A stretch of DNA of 11,539 bases, from the NCBI GenBank assembly GCA_029986975.1, contig DALTWR010000008.1, positions 1 through 11,539 of the forward strand. Direction: 5' to 3'. Both the position numbers and the translations under genes were made by a program. Below the pieces are notes generated by a model. That model saw only the letters and a list, made by a program, of their open reading frames with translations. It did no database searches and was not told where the DNA came from. The DNA is from Methanocorpusculum sp. (lineage in GTDB: Archaea; Halobacteriota; Methanomicrobia; Methanomicrobiales; Methanocorpusculaceae). Below, one piece after another: positions 74-9,900 of the stretch (the first letter of the stretch is position 1; every line of letters starts with the position of its first letter).

Positions 74-1003
74 TTACGCCGGATAATGGAACTCAGGCAT
101 CTTTCCGGCAAGAACAGCATCTTTGTATTCTTTTACATTTGCTTCAATGCAGAACACATCAATAGATTCACGAAGACGTTTTGAAAAGACCTCTTCTGCT
201 TTTTCGGGAAGAATCCAGCGCGAACCTGACTTCTGTGCGCCGGAAAGAAGACCTTCTGCTGCAGTCTTAATTACTGCACGGTCAACCATTGGGGCAAGAG
301 CAGGCTCCATGATTTCGCGGACACAGGGGTATCCGCTGCAGGGAACTTCACGCCCGAACAAAGAACTTTTTGTAAGGTCAAGACCCGCACCGATACAAGC
401 CGTCTGAACAGTTGCATAGAGCGCTGCATAGCCTTTGGAAAAGAGGACATTAACAGGATCTGCAGCGTCGCTTTCACATCTTCTTCTATACCCAAGATCT
501 TTGGGGACAGCACGGGAGATGATTTCATAATACATGTCGCGGGTAAGCGTAAACGCGCGGGTAAGTACAGGAAGAGTTATCAGATATTCCAGTTCCCCGC
601 GTATTTGTGCCAATATTTCAAACTCTCCTTTGCAGTAGAAGTTTTCGTGCGTTTCTGCAAGCTCATGCAGAATCCGCATCCGCGCCTCAATGGAAGACTC
701 AATTACTGCTTTTGCGTAAGCATGCGCTGATACGGCATCCTGTGCTGCAGAAAGACGCGGAACTTTTGCAAGCGTGCATCCTGCAGGGTTTCCTCTGATG
801 TCAAAAAATGAAATCGGAATGTTCCGCGCAGAACACTTTGCGACAACTGAGGTGTGCAGGACAGTATCTCCGGCGATGAGAATATGAGAAATGTCTGCAA
901 GCTGATATGTGTCCGGGACACGCTGACCTTTTTTCCGCACAAAAAGAGTGTCACCTGCTGCGCGAATCTCAGCGCCGTATCCCCAGATGGTAAGCCAGTC
1001 CAT
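74..1003 (-). CDS. Cas1-family protein, stand-alone, probably catalytically inactive
   Basis: A 309-residue protein with Cas1 architecture. The N-terminal beta domain (about 1-80) carries the typical strand pattern ending in SFFDIRGNPAG (65-75). The alpha-helical C-terminal domain contains DPVNVLFSKGYAALY (182-196), the Cas1 signature around DPVN, followed by GAGLDL and IMEPxLxPMVDRAV (231-244). Active Cas1 integrases use Glu, His and an Asp/Glu pair to bind metal. Here the region about 64 residues before the His site (149-154) has Thr but no Glu, the usual GFLH position reads SSLF (F216), and only the last acidic pair persists (E230, E233). I infer loss of integrase activity but retained fold. 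The start ATG overlaps the archaemetzincin stop (TAATG) and has an AGGAG site about 9 bases upstream. No Cas2, other cas gene or repeat array is in the window; the 73 bases to its left hold no gene. Family assignment is firm; function is unknown. Confidence 0.86.
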   Translation of the reverse strand: MDWLTIWGYGAEIRAAGDTLFVRKKGQRVPDTYQLADISHILIAGDTVLHTSVVAKCSARNIPISFFDIRGNPAGCTLAKVPRLSAAQDAVSAHAYAKAVIESSIEARMRILHELAETHENFYCKGEFEILAQIRGELEYLITLPVLTRAFTLTRDMYYEIISRAVPKDLGYRRRCESDAADPVNVLFSKGYAALYATVQTACIGAGLDLTKSSLFGREVPCSGYPCVREIMEPALAPMVDRAVIKTAAEGLLSGAQKSGSRWILPEKAEEVFSKRLRESIDVFCIEANVKEYKDAVLAGKMPEFHYPA

Positions 1004-1605
1004 TAGTATGTACTCCTTCTGATTCCGTTTTCGAGTTCAAGACGGCATTTTCCGCAGAAAAAGGTGTCTTTGCGGTCAAGGTCGTCTAAGTTATTCGGGC
1101 AGTACATTATGCACCCGGGGTTGCTGCAGTGCTCAAGTCCGCATAAGTGGGCAATCTCATGGCATCCTTCGGTAACAATCCGTTTAATTAACGCATAGTC
1201 ATCCGGATGGCGTCCGTAGAAGACGTTAGTAAGACGCGCGGCGGATACTACAGCCACTCCTAATTTTATGTGCGCAAGACCGAAGACGAAATTATTCCGC
1301 GGGGTATAGAGGTCTTCGGATGTTACCAGCAGAACTTTTTCATAGAGATGGCAGTGCTGCGAAAAAAAGTCCATGCTCATTTTTTCCGGTTTGAATAGTT
1401 CCGGATGAAGACTTCTGAACAAATCAATCTTTGATAGAATTTTCATTGCATCATACTGTCCGCGGGATGCGTCGTAGCCTTCGAGCGGAAATGTTCCGCC
1501 GTCAATTCTGGATACTGCGGTATTCAGTACTGATGACATCTCCTCTGTTGCCGGCTGAGCAAGCCCTGACGGGACACGGCTGTCCCAAAATATATGTATG
1601 CCCAT
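1003..1605 (-). CDS. amzA: Archaemetzincin, zinc metalloprotease
   Basis: A 200-residue protein of the archaemetzincin family, soluble peptidases whose physiological substrate in archaea is unknown. The active site is H149-E150-x2-H153-x2-G156-x2-H159, the extended metzincin motif with three zinc-binding His and a general-base Glu. It is followed at once by the family's second zinc site: C160, C165, a C-x-M (M167, the Met-turn) and C184-x2-C187. Length fits the family. It is the first gene of a two-gene unit; its TAA overlaps by one base the ATG of the downstream Cas1 homologue, so the two are probably translated together. The start has no Shine-Dalgarno site. A box A candidate ACATTTATGT (minus strand) at 1634-1643 would give a nearly leaderless mRNA. 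The 44-base gap to the divergent UPF0146 gene must hold both promoters. All catalytic residues are present, so it should be active. Confidence 0.95.
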   Translation of the reverse strand: MGIHIFWDSRVPSGLAQPATEEMSSVLNTAVSRIDGGTFPLEGYDASRGQYDAMKILSKIDLFRSLHPELFKPEKMSMDFFSQHCHLYEKVLLVTSEDLYTPRNNFVFGLAHIKLGVAVVSAARLTNVFYGRHPDDYALIKRIVTEGCHEIAHLCGLEHCSNPGCIMYCPNNLDDLDRKDTFFCGKCRLELENGIRRSTY

Positions 1606-1649
1606 TATCGATAGTTATTTTCACATCTCAAAGACATAAATGTATTCAC

Positions 1650-2051
1650 ATGCAGTACGGAATTGAGCGGGCTGTAGGAAACTACATAAAAGACCATTAT
1701 CATTCAGCAGTGGAAGTCGGATTCGGCGGAAAAACGGTTGCAGCAGAAATTGTGTCTGCTGCAGGGATTCCAATTCTTTGTACGGATGTGCACAGCTATC
1801 CTGAATGCAGCAGTGTTTCTTCGGTTGTTGATGACTGTGTTGAGCCGAGATATGACCTCTATGAAGGTGCGGATGTAATTTATGCTATTCGTCCGGGTGT
1901 CGAGATAGTGTCTGCCCTAATTGAGCTTGCAAAACGGGTGAATGCTGATTTGATTATCTATCATTTGGGATTTGAGGTTTATATGCATGGGGGGGAGGTT
2001 ATCGAGTACGAAGGAGTGCAGCTTCACCGGTATGTGAAAAAAGTATGGTAA
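1650..2051 (+). CDS. UPF0146 family protein, Rossmann-like
   Basis: A 133-residue protein matching the archaeal UPF0146 family, which has no established function. The sequence begins with a helix (IERAVGNYIKDHY) and then VEVGFGGKTV (21-30), a glycine-rich loop like motif I of class I methyltransferases. It continues with an acidic strand end LCTDVH (D46), DDC (61-63) and YAIRPGVEI (78-86). The fold is therefore probably Rossmann-like and nucleotide or SAM binding, but a reaction cannot be assigned. The reading frame stays open upstream to 1431, but that part overlaps the archaemetzincin gene on the other strand and looks non-coding. Homology-like sequence begins at ATG 1650, which I chose as start. 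No Shine-Dalgarno site is seen, so it is probably leaderless. It ends in a spacer convergent with the NYN gene, and an ATTCAGC element begins three bases after the stop. Confidence 0.85.
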   Translation: MQYGIERAVGNYIKDHYHSAVEVGFGGKTVAAEIVSAAGIPILCTDVHSYPECSSVSSVVDDCVEPRYDLYEGADVIYAIRPGVEIVSALIELAKRVNADLIIYHLGFEVYMHGGEVIEYEGVQLHRYVKKVW

Positions 2052-2053
2052 CC

Positions 2054-2087
2054 ATTCAGCTATTTTTCTAAAATAAAGAAAGTTAGC
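2054..2087 (+). terminator. AT-rich hairpin with ATTCAGC element, candidate terminator
   Basis: ATTCAGC (2054-2060) starts three bases after the UPF0146 stop. GCTATTTTTCT (2059-2069) can pair with AGAAAGTTAGC (2077-2087) in 9 of 11 positions over a 7-base loop. The T5 run suits archaeal termination. TCTAAAATAAAGA (2067-2079) recurs inverted at 3045-3057 with the same spacing to ATTCAGC. Terminator function is inferred. Confidence 0.5.
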
Positions 2088-2090
2088 AAA

Positions 2091-2122
2091 CTATTCAGCC
2101 TTCCCTCCACACCGAAATAGAG
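2091..2122 (+). repeat. Intergenic repeat copy: CTATTCAGCCT ... CCGAAATAGAG
   Basis: Two 11-base blocks, CTATTCAGCCT (2091-2101) and CCGAAATAGAG (2112-2122), occur in the same order and strand at 4488-4498 and 4504-4514. Spacers are 10 and 5 bases. Both copies lie in gaps between convergent genes, so they look like a dispersed intergenic element, possibly a transcript 3'-end signal. Confidence 0.6.
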
Positions 2123-2158
2123 ATCTGCGGCTTCTGTAGTCAAGAGAGATCGAATTGA

Positions 2159-2698
2159 TTATTTTCTCGTAAATTGAGCATAGAGTTCCGGCGTAATCTC
2201 GCATGATTCGGTAACACTCTTAAGTAAATCTCTGTTAAAAGACGGCTGGTAATAATACAGGACTGTTTTCACGCCACATTGCTCTGCCTCCTCTATGGCC
2301 GGAATAAAATCACTGTCCCCTGCAAATAACACTGCAGTATCAATCTCATTTTTCCATGCAGCTTTTGCGAGGTCAAGAGCAAATAGGACATCAACACGCT
2401 TTTGCACAAAATGATTTCCATGTCTCTGCAGTTTCCCAAGCCTGACCTGCATATTCGGGAGTTTGGAGATATGACTTACCAACTTCTGCTGTCCTGCATA
2501 GAGAGTTTTTTCATATGGCGACGGATTAGGCGATAAGTGGCGCATACATGTATAGTAATATCCTGCCTTAAGCACTCCTTCTCTTGAAGCAGCAAACGGA
2601 ATAAATTTTCTAAAATCAAATTTTCCGGTAAATCCGTGTCTATCCATGTGGTCAATATATCCGCCGTCGATAAAGATACCTACCTGCTTTAACTCCAT
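2159..2698 (-). CDS. NYN domain (LabA/DUF88-like) putative nuclease
   Basis: A 179-residue soluble protein made almost entirely of a NYN domain, a PIN-like fold that in characterised members cuts RNA with a metal held by clustered Asp residues. The expected acidic positions are visible: IDGGYID (D11, after the first strand), KRVDVLFALDLAK (D103, D109) and AGDSDFIPAI (D128, D130). C-terminal to this is a strand VLYYYQPS and a short helical end. No other domain is fused. It is transcribed alone, between a convergent UPF0146 gene and the gene-poor region to its right. No Shine-Dalgarno site precedes the ATG. A 6-bp inverted repeat, CTCAGA...TCTGAG, lies about 34-53 bases upstream. LabA-like proteins occur in diverse contexts, so RNase activity is a family-based prediction and the target is unknown. 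Confidence 0.88.
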   Translation of the reverse strand: MELKQVGIFIDGGYIDHMDRHGFTGKFDFRKFIPFAASREGVLKAGYYYTCMRHLSPNPSPYEKTLYAGQQKLVSHISKLPNMQVRLGKLQRHGNHFVQKRVDVLFALDLAKAAWKNEIDTAVLFAGDSDFIPAIEEAEQCGVKTVLYYYQPSFNRDLLKSVTESCEITPELYAQFTRK

Positions 2699-2731
2699 AA
2701 AATACTCAGAAAATAAAACCTACCGTTCCTT

Positions 2732-2751
2732 CTCAGATCACATTGTCTGAG
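2732..2751. repeat. Inverted repeat CTCAGA-N8-TCTGAG upstream of NYN gene
   Basis: CTCAGA (2732-2737) and TCTGAG (2746-2751) are perfect complements with an 8-base spacer, between the NYN start codon (2698) and a TATA-like stretch near 2765-2785. It could be an operator or a leader hairpin. TCTGAGGGAT (2746-2755) also recurs directly at 2884-2893. Function is not shown. Confidence 0.35.
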
Positions 2752-3041
2752 GGATCAGTAGGGATTACATATACTTATTTGACATATACAGAAATAAACA
2801 TTTGTGCTGTTGCAGTCATCTGTGATGTCCAGAAATTACTTTCCATACTCCTCCTTTTCTCTGTGTATCCATCCAAGAGGAACTCTGAGGGATACAGAAT
2901 CCAAGGAGGTCTTTGTAACCCTTCATCTATGTATATGAAATCAAGGGTGTTGTTTTTGTCAGCTGGCATCTGCGCGCGAATGTATGCCCTAAATTCAATG
3001 CAGCAGTCAATCCTTTTCTTTCTTCATAGTTGAATTGTTGT

Positions 3042-3070
3042 CTATCTTTATTTTAGATAGGAGGCTGAAT
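3042..3070 (-). terminator. Hairpin plus ATTCAGC element downstream of rnhB
   Basis: Read on the minus strand, 24 bases after the rnhB stop, ATTCAGCCTC (3070-3061) is followed by CTATCT/AGATAG (3042-3047 and 3055-3060), a perfect 6-bp stem with a 7-base AT loop. ATTCAGC-N6-TCTAAAATAAAGA-N-AG matches 2054-2082 in exact register. It is probably a member of the same 3'-end element. Confidence 0.5.
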
Positions 3071-3093
3071 TGTTACAATGCGGATAGAATATT

Positions 3094-3732
3094 TCAGAAA
3101 AATCCGTCGAGACTTTTCTGCGCAGATGAGGATAACAAATCTTTTGTTGTCTGCCACGTAAGACGGGCGCAGGACGGGGCTTTTCCGTACTCTCTGATAT
3201 ATCCGCGCAAAAATGCTACTGTGGTCTCATCTGAAGGGTAGCCGCTTCCAATATCTCCGAACTCTGTTTTCAGTTCTTCAATTATTCTGTCGCGGGTTAC
3301 TTTTGCAACAATACTTGCAGCGCCTACGACCTCATATTTTGCATCTGCTTTGTGAACTGAAATGACTTCTGCCTCAACACCTGATGCGGATAAGACGTTT
3401 TCTCCGAAGCGTTTTGCATTTACATCACATGCGTCAAGTATGACTTTGTCCGGACGGAGATTTCGTAAGACTTCTGCATGACAGGCGACGGTGAACTGAT
3501 TCATAGTTCCAAGGCGGGAATCAATTTCCTGCGGCGTTCTTACAATTACTGAATACTCAAAGGAGGAGGTTATTTCATCAAAAAGCTGTTCACGCTTCTT
3601 CGGCGTGAGCTGTTTTGAATCTCTGATGCCAAGTCCTGACAGTGCTGAGTCATCTTCTGCGACAACGCCCGCTGCAGTCATGGGTCCAAGGACAGGTCCT
3701 TTGCCTGCTTCATCGATTCCACAGATGCGCAT
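3094..3732 (-). CDS. rnhB: Ribonuclease HII
   Basis: A 212-residue RNase HII, which removes ribonucleotides from DNA and RNA from RNA-DNA hybrids. The N-terminus GIDEAGKGPVLGPM (5-18) contains the first two catalytic acids D7 and E8. RDSKQL (38-42) is the conserved DSK loop. VILDACDVN (98-105) supplies the third acid (D100), and HKAD-KY...GAASIVAKVTRD (127-148) supplies the fourth (D130) and the substrate-contacting segment. The C-terminus QKSLDGFF (205-212) fits the PCNA-interacting consensus Q-x2-L-x2-F-F, so the enzyme probably docks on the sliding clamp. It is a single gene divergent from the TrkA-like gene across 86 bases. No Shine-Dalgarno site is present; a box A candidate CTATTAATACC at 3755-3765 lies about 28 bases from the ATG, consistent with a leaderless mRNA. 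Confidence 0.97.
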   Translation of the reverse strand: MRICGIDEAGKGPVLGPMTAAGVVAEDDSALSGLGIRDSKQLTPKKREQLFDEITSSFEYSVIVRTPQEIDSRLGTMNQFTVACHAEVLRNLRPDKVILDACDVNAKRFGENVLSASGVEAEVISVHKADAKYEVVGAASIVAKVTRDRIIEELKTEFGDIGSGYPSDETTVAFLRGYIREYGKAPSCARLTWQTTKDLLSSSAQKSLDGFF

Positions 3733-3754
3733 GGATATATGGTATCTATTCTGA

Positions 3755-3794
3755 GGTATTAATAGGACAGGTTTTTCAATAGGATAGATTATTA
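3755..3794. promoter_or_regulatory. Divergent box A pair between rnhB and trkA-like gene
   Basis: Minus-strand CTATTAATACC (3755-3765) is centred about 28 bases before the rnhB ATG, and plus-strand GATTATTA (3787-3794) about 28 bases before the ATG at 3819. Both spacings predict transcription starting at or within a few bases of the start codon. Inferred from spacing and composition only. Confidence 0.45.
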
Positions 3795-3818
3795 CCTGTA
3801 ACTTTCATACAAGTAGGT

Positions 3819-4481
3819 ATGTATCTGATAGTTGCAGGTTTAGGCGGATTTGGAAGAGCGCTTGCGGGTTTTTCTGCGCAGAAAGGAAACAGTGTTGCAG
3901 TGATTGATACGGACCCGGAAAAATGTTCAAGGATTCTTGAAGAGTATGACCTGCTTGCCATAGCCGGAAATGCAACTGATTTAGAGACTCTTGAAGAGGC
4001 AGGGATTTCGCAGGCGGATGCATTTGTTGCGGCAACCGGTGATGATGCAATAAATCTTATGGCATGCTGGATTGCAAAACGATATAATATAACGTCTCTT
4101 TTTGCGGTGGTAAATCAGAAAGAGCATGAGAGTCTGTTCCATGAGGCAGGCATTAAGGTTTGTGAGAATCGTGATGATATTGCAGCACGCAGTCTCCTTT
4201 TGAAACTGGAAAACCCTGACGCGCAGATTCTTGCATCGATTGAGGGCGGATGTCTCTATGAAATAACGGTTGCCGAAGGTTCAAAAGGCGATGGTAAAAC
4301 GGTTCGTGAGGTTTCAGGCAGCAAGGATGATTTATATGTGGCTGTCAGAAGAAAAGGAGAGCTCATTATCCCGAACGGGGATGTGATGTTTAAACCTGAT
4401 GATAGAATTCTTGTCTTTACGAAAAAGACGGATGAAGCAAAATCTGTCGAACGAATGAAGGGGCTTTTTGGGAATAATTAA
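3819..4481 (+). CDS. TrkA-family potassium uptake regulatory protein (RCK domains)
   Basis: A 220-residue cytoplasmic regulator with a complete TrkA-N and TrkA-C pair. TrkA-N (about 1-120) opens with the dinucleotide-binding loop GLGGFG (7-12), an acidic residue closing the second strand (VID, D30) that would hold the NAD ribose, and the family motif AGNATD (49-54), then FVAATGDDAINL (69-80). TrkA-C (about 136-203) shows the beta-rich NGDVMFKPDDRILVF end (186-200). Such proteins gate K+ transporters (TrkH/KtrB) or channels in response to nucleotides. No membrane subunit is present in the window, so the partner must lie elsewhere or be unlinked. ATG 3819 is preceded only by a weak AGGT. The gene is monocistronic, divergent from rnhB and convergent with cmk, and a hairpin element begins seven bases after its stop. 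Confidence 0.93.
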   Translation: MYLIVAGLGGFGRALAGFSAQKGNSVAVIDTDPEKCSRILEEYDLLAIAGNATDLETLEEAGISQADAFVAATGDDAINLMACWIAKRYNITSLFAVVNQKEHESLFHEAGIKVCENRDDIAARSLLLKLENPDAQILASIEGGCLYEITVAEGSKGDGKTVREVSGSKDDLYVAVRRKGELIIPNGDVMFKPDDRILVFTKKTDEAKSVERMKGLFGNN

Positions 4482-4487
4482 TTGTAT

Positions 4488-4525
4488 CTATTCAGCCTCA
4501 TGTCCGAAATAGAGGAACTGAATAG
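4488..4525. terminator. Bidirectional hairpin between convergent trkA-like and cmk genes
   Basis: CTATTCAG (4488-4495) is the exact complement of CTGAATAG (4518-4525). CCTC (4496-4499) also pairs with GAGG (4512-4515), giving about 12 base pairs with a two-base bulge and a 12-base loop. It sits between two convergent stop codons (4481 and 4537), so CTATTCAG is downstream of the stop in the sense direction for both genes. It carries a copy of the element at 2091-2122. Confidence 0.6.
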
Positions 4526-4536
4526 CTGCAAAAATA

Positions 4537-5067
4537 TTATTTCTTCAGAAGGCAGTCAACCGCCGCTGAAGAAATTGCCAGAACCTCATCCTGATTAAAC
4601 AGCTCAGTGCTGATAACAAGGTCGAACGGTTCTGTTGAAAGAATATCAATACCGTAGTACTCACGATACCGGAGTGCTTCGCAGGCTTCACGCTCAACCG
4701 TCAGCTCGTATGACTTTTCAGGCGTAAGCCCTTCACGCTCTGCAATGCGTTCCGAGCGGCACTTCTGAGATGCGGTAAGCAAAATCTTGATATCTGCATT
4801 TTCAACAAACCAGCCGGACAAACGGCTTTCAATTATGATATTGTCGTTGTCTTTTGCAAACTGAGTCTGACGTCTGTCAACTTCGTGGTCGATATCCGGA
4901 TTCTGTTTTGCAAGTTCCCCGAACTCAGCAAGAGTCATCCCGCGTTCTGCTGCACTGTCGCGGAAAAAAGAACCGCCTGAGTAAAAACTCAGACCGTACT
5001 TTGCGGCAAGGGCTTTGCCGAGAGTGGTTGTCCCGGAACCCGGCTGCCCGCCGATACAGATTCTCAT
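4537..5067 (-). CDS. cmk: Archaeal cytidylate (CMP) kinase
   Basis: A 176-residue P-loop kinase of the archaeal CMP kinase family, which phosphorylates CMP and dCMP with ATP in the cytoplasm. The N-terminal loop is GGQPGSGTTT (6-15). The usual Walker A lysine position (13) is Thr, a point to check against close relatives. Other family landmarks are YSGGSFFRD (29-37), NPDIDHEVDRRQ (56-67), IIIESRLSGW (77-86) and the lid segment REACEALRYREYYGID (126-141). It is the last gene of an adk-DUF106-cmk unit. Its ATG directly follows the DUF106 TAA with no gap, and GGGAG lies about 9 bases upstream. This order with DUF106 is a known archaeal arrangement linked to the secY region. Transcription ends in the hairpin at 4488-4525. 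Confidence 0.93.
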   Translation of the reverse strand: MRICIGGQPGSGTTTLGKALAAKYGLSFYSGGSFFRDSAAERGMTLAEFGELAKQNPDIDHEVDRRQTQFAKDNDNIIIESRLSGWFVENADIKILLTASQKCRSERIAEREGLTPEKSYELTVEREACEALRYREYYGIDILSTEPFDLVISTELFNQDEVLAISSAAVDCLLKK

Positions 5068-5706
5068 TTAGTAACTCCCGATGTTTAATGCTTTGCGGAT
5101 AATCTGCGTCATACAAAGAGAACAGAGAATATACCAGATAAGCCATGCCGGGAAGACAAGAATTGATGCCTGATACGAGGTAAGACCTGCAAACGGCAGA
5201 ATAATTGAGTTCGTTAAATCCGCAATTTCCGGAATAAGCATATCTGCAGTCGGCATCTGACTGATGCGTTCATAAAGCCAGAAGAAAATCGGAATGGTCA
5301 CGACTAAAATATAAGCCATCGGCTTAAACTGTGCCTGACTCATCTTCATCTGCTCACTCATCATCTGCTGCTGCTGTGCCTGCATCTTCTTAATCAGACG
5401 TTCATCACCCAGTTTCTGAGCTTCACGGAACTTTGCGTTGAACTCCTTCATCTTCTCCTGATTTTTGGTCATCGCCTCATAGTCGATGGTGTACTTCTGG
5501 AGAAGGGAAGAGTAGAAACCGGTAACCGTTGCAAGAATCAGCACCAGTCCGAAGAAGGGAATACCCATAGCCTCGAAAGGCGCGATTACGACGTTGGCAA
5601 TCCCTGCAATAACAGCGCGTGCTTCCTGCCACTGGTAGAGCAGCATCATGGCAATCATAGCTCCGAAAGCTATGAACATACCATACTTGTCGCCAATTTT
5701 ACCCAT
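5068..5706 (-). CDS. DUF106 membrane protein, archaeal EMC3/YidC-like
   Basis: A 212-residue integral membrane protein of the DUF106 family, regarded as archaeal relatives of the Oxa1/YidC/EMC3/TMCO1 insertases. Hydrophobic segments fall at about 8-24, 50-70, 128-146 and 182-203. Between the second and third lies a long, highly charged and Gln/Met-rich stretch (about 75-127, including KKMQAQQQQMM) typical of the cytosolic coiled coil that meets the ribosome or nascent chain in this superfamily. It lies between adk and cmk, six bases from the adk stop and abutting cmk, as in many archaeal genomes where this block follows secY. A GAGG site lies just upstream of the ATG. Role in membrane protein insertion is inferred from the family. 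Confidence 0.9.
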   Translation of the reverse strand: MGKIGDKYGMFIAFGAMIAMMLLYQWQEARAVIAGIANVVIAPFEAMGIPFFGLVLILATVTGFYSSLLQKYTIDYEAMTKNQEKMKEFNAKFREAQKLGDERLIKKMQAQQQQMMSEQMKMSQAQFKPMAYILVVTIPIFFWLYERISQMPTADMLIPEIADLTNSIILPFAGLTSYQASILVFPAWLIWYILCSLCMTQIIRKALNIGSY

Positions 5707-5712
5707 GAAGGT

Positions 5713-6348
<636 letters not shown>

Positions 6349-6609
6349 TTAGTGCTCCTCTCTTACCATGGTTATGCATTTCTTCGGACACTCGTTGGAA
6401 CAGATTCCGCAGCCTTTACAGTAGACTAAATCAATCTCCTGTGTGTCTGCATCAATTACTGCATCCGGACAGTACATAGCACAAATTCCGCAGTGGTTGC
6501 AGACTTCGCGGTTTACCACCGGACGGAATGTTCTCCACGTTCCTGTCTGTCCCATCGCTGCTTCTTTCGGGGTGCTGATGGTGATTTTCGGGATTCCCTG
6601 ATACGTCAT
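6349..6609 (-). CDS. porD: Pyruvate:ferredoxin oxidoreductase delta subunit (2[4Fe-4S] ferredoxin)
   Basis: An 86-residue ferredoxin-like subunit. Two full cluster-binding motifs are present: C37-x2-C40-x2-C43-x3-C47-P and C64-x2-C67-x2-C70-x3-C74-P. The N-terminal lead with TGTWRTFRPVV (22-32) is characteristic of PorD. The two [4Fe-4S] clusters carry electrons from the thiamine site in PorB to external ferredoxin. The gene overlaps the end of porG by four bases (ATGA) and has a strong GAGGAGGT site, so it is translated as part of the operon. It is the last gene of porB-porA-porG-porD. Length is normal for a free-standing delta subunit. Confidence 0.94.
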   Translation of the reverse strand: MTYQGIPKITISTPKEAAMGQTGTWRTFRPVVNREVCNHCGICAMYCPDAVIDADTQEIDLVYCKGCGICSNECPKKCITMVREEH

Positions 6610-7136
6610 GCCTTTACCTCCTCGTATGCGGTTTCAGCTGCTTCGACGTTTCTTACATCAGTGAACGTCTCCTGAATTGCTTTCTTGCCGGATTCGGATG
6701 AGAAGATGCCGAGTTTTGCCATTGCGCCGATGACCGGCGTGTTTAAAATCGGACTTCCTGCGACAAACATATTTTTCGCAAGAGCGATACCGGTTAAGTC
6801 CGCACAGTACGCTTTAAACTGCGGCGGGAACTTCAGATCTTCATGCGTGTTTACAAAGATAACGCCGCCTTCCTTTAATCCGTCAAGAACGTTTACCGTT
6901 TCCATGACGGTGGGGTCGAGGACAACAATCATATCGGGCTTGGTAATCTGCGAGTAGATTCTAACCGGTGCATCATCAATTCTTACGAATGAAACGATAG
7001 GTGCGCCGCGGCGCTCTGCTCCGTAGAACGGACATGCGGTTGCAAACTTTCCGTCTTTAACGGCAGCAGATGCCATCATGCGTGCTGCGGTAACGCCTCC
7101 CTGTCCTCCGCGTGAGTGAATACGAATTTCGTACAT
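6606..7136 (-). CDS. porG: Pyruvate:ferredoxin oxidoreductase gamma subunit
   Basis: A 176-residue gamma subunit (also called PorC in methanogens). It begins IRIHSRGGQGGVTAARM (4-20), the glycine-rich signature of the 2-oxoacid oxidoreductase gamma family, followed by FYGAERRGAPIVSFVRI (37-53) and DMIVVLDPTVM (70-80). The domain helps bind coenzyme A and close the active site. Its ATG overlaps the porA stop by one base (TAATG) with GGAGG upstream; its own stop overlaps porD. Sequence is intact and of normal length (about 175-185). Pyruvate specificity is inferred from the alpha and beta subunits of the operon. Confidence 0.93.
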   Translation of the reverse strand: MYEIRIHSRGGQGGVTAARMMASAAVKDGKFATACPFYGAERRGAPIVSFVRIDDAPVRIYSQITKPDMIVVLDPTVMETVNVLDGLKEGGVIFVNTHEDLKFPPQFKAYCADLTGIALAKNMFVAGSPILNTPVIGAMAKLGIFSSESGKKAIQETFTDVRNVEAAETAYEEVKA

Positions 7137-8263
7137 TACTGTTCCTCCGTAATTCCGAACCAGAACTCTGTACCCATCTTTCTGGATTTAACAAACTCTG
7201 CGATATCTTCGTAGGTGACTTCCTGACCGCCGAGACCTGCGATTACACGTGCCATTTTTGCCTCGGGGTAGCGTGCCTGAATTTCACCAGCGATAACGCC
7301 GCCGAATCCGAATGAGTAGTCGCGGTCGATGACTACCAGTTCGCGTCCGTTAATCTTCATATCAAGCGGGAACGGGCGAAGCCATCTGATGCGCATAACA
7401 CCTGCTTTGATGCCTTCTTTTCTGAGATTGTCTGCTGCAACTTCCGCCTCTTTTCCAAGCGTTCCCATCGCAACAATTATGACCTCTGCATCATCGCAGA
7501 GATACTCTTCGACCGGAGCGTAGTGTCTTCCGAAACGCTTTGCAAATTCTGCTTCGGTTTCTTTAATGACCTCGCGTGCAGCACGCTGAGCCTTTTCCAT
7601 GTCGAATCTGAACTGGTAGTGAACGTTTGAGGGACTCATTGCGCCGTATCCGTGCGGATCATCTAAGTCGATTGCATGCGGTAAAGAGATTGGCGGGATA
7701 AAGTCGCCTGGTTCTGTCATCTCATACGGCTGCATGATGTGAGACAATAAGAACCCGTCCATATTAATCATGACAGGCAGAAGGATTCTATTGTCTTCTG
7801 CGATTCTGAATGCCATCAGTGTTGCATCGTATGCTTCCTGAACAGTGGAGACGTAAATCTGCAGCCATCCGGTATCACGCTGGGATAATGCATCAGAGTG
7901 TTCTGCCCACGTGTTCCAGCCGGGTGCGATGGTTCTGTTAACCTGACCCATGACGATTGGAAGGCGTGCGCCTGCTGCCCAGTGAAGCATTTCGTGCATG
8001 TATAAAAGACCGTGAGAACTGGTTGCAGTAAAGACACGAACGCCGGTTGCTGCAGCACCTATACATGCGGTCATTGCGGAGTGTTCGGATTCGACCGGGA
8101 TGTAGCGGGCATCCATCTCGCCTGCTTCTACGTACTCTGCGATGGATTCGATGATTTCAGTCTGCGGGGTAATCGGGTATGCTGCAACGACTGTAGGCTG
8201 TGCCATTTTAACAGCTGCTGCGACTGCTTTGTTTCCCGTTCCCATTACTAATTCGCCTTTCAT
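7136..8263 (-). CDS. porA: Pyruvate:ferredoxin oxidoreductase alpha subunit
   Basis: A 375-residue alpha subunit of the pyruvate synthase complex, which in methanogens mainly runs in the biosynthetic direction (acetyl-CoA + CO2 + reduced ferredoxin to pyruvate). Key segments are AAYPITPQTEIIE (27-39), the YPITP motif of the pyrimidine-binding domain; VESEHSAMTACIGAAATG (57-74); and ATSSHGLLYMHEMLHWAAG (80-98). The C-terminal transketolase-like domain contains VIIVAMGTLGKEAEVA (261-276) and VVIDRDYSFGFGG (310-322). Its ATG overlaps the porB stop by four bases and a strong GGAGG site precedes it. Length is normal for a split four-subunit enzyme. A ketoisovalerate enzyme is the main alternative but less likely. 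Confidence 0.93.
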   Translation of the reverse strand: MKGELVMGTGNKAVAAAVKMAQPTVVAAYPITPQTEIIESIAEYVEAGEMDARYIPVESEHSAMTACIGAAATGVRVFTATSSHGLLYMHEMLHWAAGARLPIVMGQVNRTIAPGWNTWAEHSDALSQRDTGWLQIYVSTVQEAYDATLMAFRIAEDNRILLPVMINMDGFLLSHIMQPYEMTEPGDFIPPISLPHAIDLDDPHGYGAMSPSNVHYQFRFDMEKAQRAAREVIKETEAEFAKRFGRHYAPVEEYLCDDAEVIIVAMGTLGKEAEVAADNLRKEGIKAGVMRIRWLRPFPLDMKINGRELVVIDRDYSFGFGGVIAGEIQARYPEAKMARVIAGLGGQEVTYEDIAEFVKSRKMGTEFWFGITEEQ

Positions 8264-9399: not shown

Positions 9400-9645
9400 A
9401 TGACAGATGAAGTTATGGTTTCACTAAGTCAGGACACTGCAGGAAAACTTGACAGACTGTTTAAAGATTCGTCATTAAATTATGCTGATATGATTAGCAA
9501 AGTCGTAGATTATACGTTTGCTGATTTAGATGATTTTGACGAACAGGATTATCGTGAAATTTCATTAGCTGTTGCTGAAGTTAATTCCGGGAAATTCTAT
9601 ACATCTAAAGATGTTGAAGATATGATTTCCGCAAAGAAAGAGTGA
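9400..9645 (+). CDS. Probable antitoxin of a RelBE/ParDE-type pair
   Basis: An 81-residue acidic protein directly upstream of a RelE-type toxin, its stop immediately followed by the toxin ATG. The N-terminal part (VMVSLSQDTAGKLDRL, 5-20, then helices to about 40) looks like a short DNA-binding beta strand plus helices, as in ribbon-helix-helix antitoxins. The C-terminal half (46-81) is Asp/Glu-rich with NSGKFYTSKDVEDMI, a segment like those that wrap around the toxin. I cannot assign it to a specific antitoxin family; identification rests on size, charge and position. It probably represses its own operon together with the toxin. Codons are visibly richer in A/T than in the por genes, which suggests acquisition from elsewhere. 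Confidence 0.72.
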   Translation: MTDEVMVSLSQDTAGKLDRLFKDSSLNYADMISKVVDYTFADLDDFDEQDYREISLAVAEVNSGKFYTSKDVEDMISAKKE

Positions 9646-9900
9646 ATGATGTATCAGGTAATCTATTCACCTCAGGCATATTCATTTTTAGAAAAACTTG
9701 ATAAAAAGACTGCAATCCGCATTGTCAATAAAATAAACGCATCCCTCGAAAATCCGTTTGCCTGTTCATTGCCTTTGACAGACATGGAGGGTTTACGTAA
9801 AATTCGTGTGGGGGACTTTAGAATCCTGATTATGATTAATGAAAAAACGGTAATCGTAACGGTAGTTCGGATAAAACACCGCCGAAATGTGTATAAGTAA
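9646..9900 (+). CDS. RelE/ParE-family toxin
   Basis: An 84-residue protein with the RelE/ParE layout: strand YQVIYSPQAYSFLEKL (3-18), helix KKTAIRIVNKINASLENPF (20-38), then EGLRKIRVGDFRILIMINEKTVIVTVVRIKHRRNVYK (48-84, given here as landmarks R51, R54, FRIL 58-61 and HRRNVY 78-83). RelE members cut mRNA in the ribosomal A site and ParE members act on gyrase; the C-terminal basic HRRxVYK fits the RelE side, but the sequence alone does not settle it. The antitoxin stop TGA is followed directly by ATGATG, so either 9646 or 9649 could be the start. Base composition is AT-rich like the antitoxin. The gene ends just before strong hairpins and converges on tfb. Confidence 0.88.
   Translation: MMYQVIYSPQAYSFLEKLDKKTAIRIVNKINASLENPFACSLPLTDMEGLRKIRVGDFRILIMINEKTVIVTVVRIKHRRNVYK

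Follow-up and report, generated by a model that had tools for sequence, protein, structure and literature searches.

Near one end of the stretch analysed here, hereafter termed the window (11,539 nucleotides of contig DALTWR010000008.1, Methanocorpusculum sp., GenBank assembly GCA_029986975.1; the host is a probable methane-making archaeon), lies a gene for a stand-alone Cas1 protein, a relative of the integrases of clustered regularly interspaced short palindromic repeats (CRISPR) systems. The original prediction had placed this gene at 74..1003 without naming a strand; it is encoded on the minus strand. Membership in the Cas1 family is documented by matches to PF01867 (E=1.2e-28) and TIGR00287 (80.2 bits versus a cut-off of 71.7). 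An AlphaFold2 model derived from 77 sequences (mean predicted local distance difference test score (pLDDT) 93.9, predicted template modelling score (pTM) 0.90) predicts a complete Cas1 fold, and the 50 PDB matches listed per program were all Cas1 or casposase structures, the best of them covering nearly the full length. Judged by its sequence, the window gene is a Methanocorpusculum-type member of group 1 of Cas1-solo, a name that reportedly goes back to Makarova et al. in 2013. The nearest named relative, from a Methanocorpusculum metagenome-assembled genome (L001), is 69% identical to the window protein, and a further relative, P0001, is 98% identical.

In an alignment with 19 CRISPR Cas1 proteins from related genomes (18 loci from one search plus one from another; canonical Cas1 in the following), the catalytic Glu is replaced with F151 and the catalytic His with F216, and E230/E233 align with the acidic pair, which consists of Asp and Glu in the 19 canonical proteins. 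A profile-profile alignment of 77 solo versus 14 canonical sequences gave the same residue match; an alignment artefact as the cause of the missing Glu and His was rejected because the two independent alignments agree. The window protein accordingly has neither the Glu-His-Asp-Asp/Glu site of CRISPR adaptation Cas1 nor all four catalytic residues by which casposases are recognised. These findings bear out the proposal in the original prediction of a stand-alone Cas1 with Glu and His replaced and only the acidic pair left, and a different Glu plus His in the active site, the observation that would have spoken against this proposal, was not apparent in the two sequence and profile alignments. 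E146 was considered as a stand-in for the catalytic Glu and rejected, as position 146 is Val in the window protein (codon 566-568) and falls on the other face of the helix by arithmetic; Glu is found at this position in 95 of the 108 family members described below, and also in P0001.

The family sample was drawn from several sources. Of 92 encoding stretches in a genome collection, 80 were taken, each with an open reading frame (ORF) above 290 bits (L008 and L058 belong to the few ORFs cut by a contig end), and deeper members came from whole-genome searches. The 121 solo proteins above 200 bits included 108 distinct sequences, as judged by their last 200 residues, and the 53 relatives from a protein search stand in the main alignment but outside the 108 counted. 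Not a single one of the 108 has the complete E-H-D-E set, and the losses differ by lineage. Read in the order Glu-His-acid-acid, Methanoculleus-like solo proteins have S-H-D-E and many Methanoregula-like ones H-H-D-E or H-H-D-D. Methanocorpusculum-like proteins have Phe or Tyr at the first site and Phe, Tyr or His at the second, and in those of 12 genomes (G199-G210) the first site is still Glu or Asp, but the second is Asn or Ser and the fourth Asn. About three fifths of all alignment columns are less variable than the columns of the former catalytic Glu and His. The residues R149, Y158, Y159, E160, R164, R175, D182 and N185, on the other hand, are unvarying in solo proteins, and D241 is present in 107 of 108, with a gap in the remaining row. 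Position 149, Arg in every solo member, is Gly in 18 of the 19 canonical proteins and Gly or Ala in all of them. A tree of 68 of the 108 solo rows together with 24 other Cas1 rows (a quick search with long branches; none of its rows is a known casposase) separated the solo rows from all others by a branch with a support of 100 in the Shimodaira-Hasegawa-like approximate likelihood ratio test (SH-aLRT). On this tree, in which the trait columns were kept, a minimum of 15 changes is counted at the Glu site and of 20 at the His site, as against zero at the R149, Y158, Y159 and D241 sites. According to the predicted secondary structure, helix 144-165 would contain the old Glu position as well as the new invariant residues; with a turn of 100 degrees for each residue, positions 149, 153, 157, 160 and 164 (and 146) would fall within 0-80 degrees, and residues 151 and 158 at 180-200 degrees.

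Some copies stand apart. One damaged or strongly diverged copy (L147, G142:C6), which scored below the line and was inspected separately from the 108, has no early start codon and has lost the DPVN motif, and another (L137, G117:C6) is split into two frames. Among the matches listed, that of G007 contains a TGA inside the solo match. G152 has two solo Cas1 matches of near-equal score (C101:7427-8323 and C67:6573-7472), which could reflect a mixed assembly or a duplication.

Within the order Methanomicrobiales, the solo protein was matched in 217 of 232 genomes (weakest best match E=3.2e-62), compared with 216 of the same genomes for ribosomal protein S8. Five genomes had neither, ten lacked the solo protein only and eleven lacked S8 only, so that the absences resemble what assembly gaps would give. 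A profile search of 392 genomes sampled from the phylum returned 83 matches of at least 304 bits, all within the order, and four matches outside it (148-167 bits) that have the canonical Glu and His motifs; in this sample, the solo group is restricted to Methanomicrobiales, and there was no sign of transfer of the window family outside the order. In line with this, 79 of the 80 collection loci are labelled as methanogens of the order or as Euryarchaeota bins. The remaining one, the 13777-base contig L067 labelled Geobacter sp. UBA4074, has the same solo score as L059 (Methanoregula sp. UBA154) and is probably a wrongly binned contig. As for the relation to CRISPR, cas2 (PF09827) was detected in 85 of the 232 genomes, all of which carry the solo protein; so do 132 of the 147 genomes without detected cas2, although the true count without cas2 may be smaller than 132, as PF09827 misses some Cas2 types (an E. 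coli control remained silent) and genome completeness is not given. Being kept with or without detected cas2, the dead form probably does another job.

The solo gene is under purifying selection. The ratio of non-synonymous to synonymous substitution rates (dN/dS) had a median of 0.145 over 26 independent, non-overlapping pairs out of 268 limited to dS 0.1-0.8, a range in which the window gene has no partner, and exceeded 0.5 in one of the 268. In an earlier run with looser ends, 103 of 737 pairs exceeded 0.5 and the median was 0.34, a value that we judge to be inflated by overlong N-termini and by pairs up to dS 1.5. These results are evidence that the dead Cas1 belongs to the core genes of the order and that selection has shaped it for a task other than integration. 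The conservation of an inactive form, raised in the original prediction as a possibility, thus extends across the order. The coordinates of the gene, of its informative codons and of its immediate neighbour are collected in Table 1.

Table 1. Features at the solo Cas1 locus of the window
Feature	Positions	Strand	Basis
Cas1-solo group 1 gene, no intact integrase active site	74..1003	minus	309-residue ORF
Phe151 codon TTT, where canonical Cas1 has the catalytic Glu	551..553	minus	alignments
Phe216 codon TTC, where canonical Cas1 has the catalytic His	356..358	minus	alignments
Glu230...Glu233, acidic pair remaining from the old metal site	305..316	minus	alignment
Arg149 codon	557..559	minus	Arg in 108/108 solo, Gly/Ala in 19/19 canonical Cas1
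Tyr158-Tyr159-Glu160...Arg164, solo-family invariants	512..532	minus	each 108/108
Archaemetzincin (peptidase M54), directly upstream of solo Cas1	1003..1605	minus	profile matches

In the window, the stop codon of the archaemetzincin gene and the start codon of the solo gene overlap by one base (TAATG). The other window genes recognised with Pfam and NCBIfam encode UPF0146, an NYN domain protein, RNase HII, a TrkA-like protein, (d)CMP kinase, adenylate kinase, TFB, a 2-oxoacid:ferredoxin oxidoreductase gamma subunit, a membrane protein with a weak YidC match and a protein with a Gar1 match below cut-off; further oxidoreductase subunits were named by eye. These genes, like the RelE-like one described next, have the look of ordinary archaeal genes. 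A possible RelB/RelE-like pair (81 and 84 residues) lies at 9400-9900 on the plus strand; its RelE-like match reached 23.4 bits versus an NCBIfam cut-off of 27.9, and the first gene of the pair had no NCBIfam match. Neither a CRISPR array nor cas2 was found in the window, as the original prediction had stated for CRISPR repeats and other cas genes, with only 73 bases lying downstream of the solo gene. Casposases reside in a mobile element with polB and keep all four catalytic residues, according to PMC4046053; no polB was recognised among the 14 window proteins scanned, again with a downstream flank of 73 bases, and a similarity search of the whole window versus plasmids gave no match.

The neighbour survey covered 77 loci; it excluded L067 because this contig is probably a copy of L059, and L013, L050 and L056 because their solo gene was missing from the non-overlapping set. 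Among the 10 + 7 representatives scanned from the larger neighbour families of these loci, no cas gene was found. Archaemetzincin lies upstream, overlapping or at most 110 bases from the aligned start, in 19 of 20 Methanocorpusculum- and Methanocalculus-like rows, the window included; in the exception, L002, its frame is truncated and 332 bases away. Overlaps of 1-4 bases between the two genes occur in several relatives. All 30 genomes examined have archaemetzincin, yet only eight (G001, G004, G006, G008, G009, G012, G016 and G023) have it upstream of the solo gene at a distance of less than 0.5 kb, and the link exists only in the Methanocorpusculum-like and Methanocalculus-like lineages. Downstream, many relatives have a YGR210-like GTPase or an acylphosphatase, the typical Methanocorpusculum context being archaemetzincin plus the GTPase. 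Many other loci of the order are flanked, on the strand opposite to the solo gene, by an acyl-CoA-ligase-like pair, an acylphosphatase, a protein of about 1,188 residues and phosphomannomutase. The approximately 1,188-residue protein (e.g. L042:11189-14755) stands beside the solo gene in 43 of the 77 loci; one representative of its family had weak TPR matches only, another no Pfam match. In L151 (G198, 1534-7171), the genes for RNA polymerase A' and A'' and for a NusA-like KH protein precede solo Cas1 in the same orientation. A conserved operon partner was considered and rejected, as the housekeeping context changes between lineages.

We regard the conversion of Cas1 into a conserved non-catalytic protein of the order as the best explanation overall, and as a probable one. 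That the solo Cas1 is a pseudoenzyme is very likely; whether it binds DNA, a role that the original prediction had named beside that of a scaffold, comes close to an even bet, which we would place slightly on the doubtful side. More tentatively still, a CRISPR/casposon-type integrase may have been domesticated once, before Methanomicrobiales radiated, into a core non-catalytic protein of chromosome maintenance, with selection moving from the active site to the R149-E160-R164 surface on the same helix. In the best explanation, Cas1 would have parted from CRISPR/casposon integration prior to the radiation of the order, the Glu/His chemistry would then have been lost, and the protein would have been kept in non-catalytic form across the order. 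The resulting pseudo-integrase, likely still a Cas1-type dimer, may recognise DNA structures such as ends, flaps or forks without cutting them, for which chromosome maintenance is the proposed setting, and R149, E160 and R164, a new charged row on the side of the helix that faces away from the old Glu, could form a salt-bridge network or a partner-binding surface.

Several observations weigh against this interpretation. The median net charge (K+R minus D+E on whole ORFs, some of them with overlong N-termini) is -4.5 for solo versus +2 for canonical proteins, which disfavours DNA binding. In the same locus pairs (3 to 15 pairs), neighbour families had dN/dS values of 0.008 to 0.136, compared with 0.150 over 23 pairs for the solo protein, the highest of the eight families and thus the least constrained. 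The neighbours themselves, housekeeping genes varying by lineage, give no functional hint. Finally, Haloferax volcanii Cas1 resembles our reading of group 1 in being an archaeal Cas1 with a role beyond CRISPR, namely in DNA repair, yet the E158A mutation impaired rescue in the experiments described in PMC9051519. This repair role depends on the catalytic Glu that the window protein lacks, so the parallel does not extend to a Cas1 that is dead.

Among the alternatives, a scaffolding or regulatory protein that binds no nucleic acid, such as a partner to archaemetzincin in Methanocorpusculum, would be in line with the TAATG overlap in the window and the short overlaps in relatives, with the invariant charged residues specific to solo proteins and with the slightly acidic character of the protein; we nonetheless consider it improbable, given that the two genes are close neighbours in 8 of 30 genomes that all have archaemetzincin. 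It is also unlikely that the protein is an active enzyme with a rebuilt centre (D230, D241, D182, E160, Y158/Y159 and, in many members, His at the former Glu site) catalysing nuclease or other phosphoryl transfer reactions. Such a centre could draw on D241 and the invariant D182, E160, Y158 and Y159, on an acidic residue (Asp or Glu) at position 230 in 107 of 108 members (the other row being a gap) and on His at the old Glu site in 41 of 108, and PMC4046053 considers it, though as 'less likely'. However, positions 151, 216 and 233, nearest to the old metal site, are free to vary, with Phe at the first two in the window protein and Asn or Gly at the third in 14 members; none of the columns conserved in at least 95% of solo members is a His or a Cys; and E146, R149, E160 and R164 would lie on the face opposite residue 151 by helix arithmetic. 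It is very unlikely that the protein regulates the CRISPR adaptation Cas1 of its genome or acts on it as a dominant-negative partner. The presence of the solo protein in all genomes with detected cas2 and the Cas1 fold common to both speak for this idea, but 132 of 147 genomes carry the solo protein without detected cas2, even if that number may be lower owing to the types missed by PF09827. A vestigial, decaying gene, to use the wording of PMC9755687 after Krupovic et al., is scarcely credible: although the active site is incomplete in every member examined and a few copies are damaged (G117/L137, G142/L147) or interrupted by TGA (the G007 match), the frames are open in the other matches listed, and the S8-like presence, the dN/dS of about 0.145 and the new invariant residues argue against decay, the first two having led us to reject it as a general description.

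The conversion of Cas1 into a conserved non-catalytic protein has to be seen against what is on record for Cas1-solo. PMC4046053 (Krupovic et al. 2014) distinguishes two groups, group 1 being that of Methanomicrobiales without a full active site, and PMC9939771 repeats this account. Activity of group 1 was set aside in 2014 as unlikely (PMC4046053), and PMC9755687 later calls the proteins "probably vestigial". The inactive state is thus already known and the family is not new; the original prediction had seen the inactive form as going beyond the known Cas1-solo groups, which does not hold, since the published group 1 shows the same loss (PMC4046053). No functional study of group 1 was recognised in the open-licence literature, subscription papers being mostly outside its coverage. 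New here are the near-universal presence, the per-site change counts, the solo-specific invariants, the dN/dS analysis and the neighbour survey. What had been set aside and then called probably vestigial counts here as a core gene of a methanogen order and, if read as a core gene under purifying selection, it would be a clear example of how a CRISPR-type integrase is retained for a role other than integration.

Compared with known systems, the window family shares with Cas1-solo group 1 the confinement to Methanomicrobiales, the lack of a CRISPR link, the incomplete active site and the grouping in one clade, and we found no difference between group 1 and the window protein. The casposase of Cas1-solo group 2 (PDB 6opm, which we take to be that of Methanosarcina mazei), in contrast, keeps the four catalytic residues that the window protein lacks. 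Relative to CRISPR adaptation Cas1, for which those of Synechocystis (PDB 7cr6) and A. fulgidus (4n06) are examples, the window protein has lost Glu and His and has Arg in place of Gly149.
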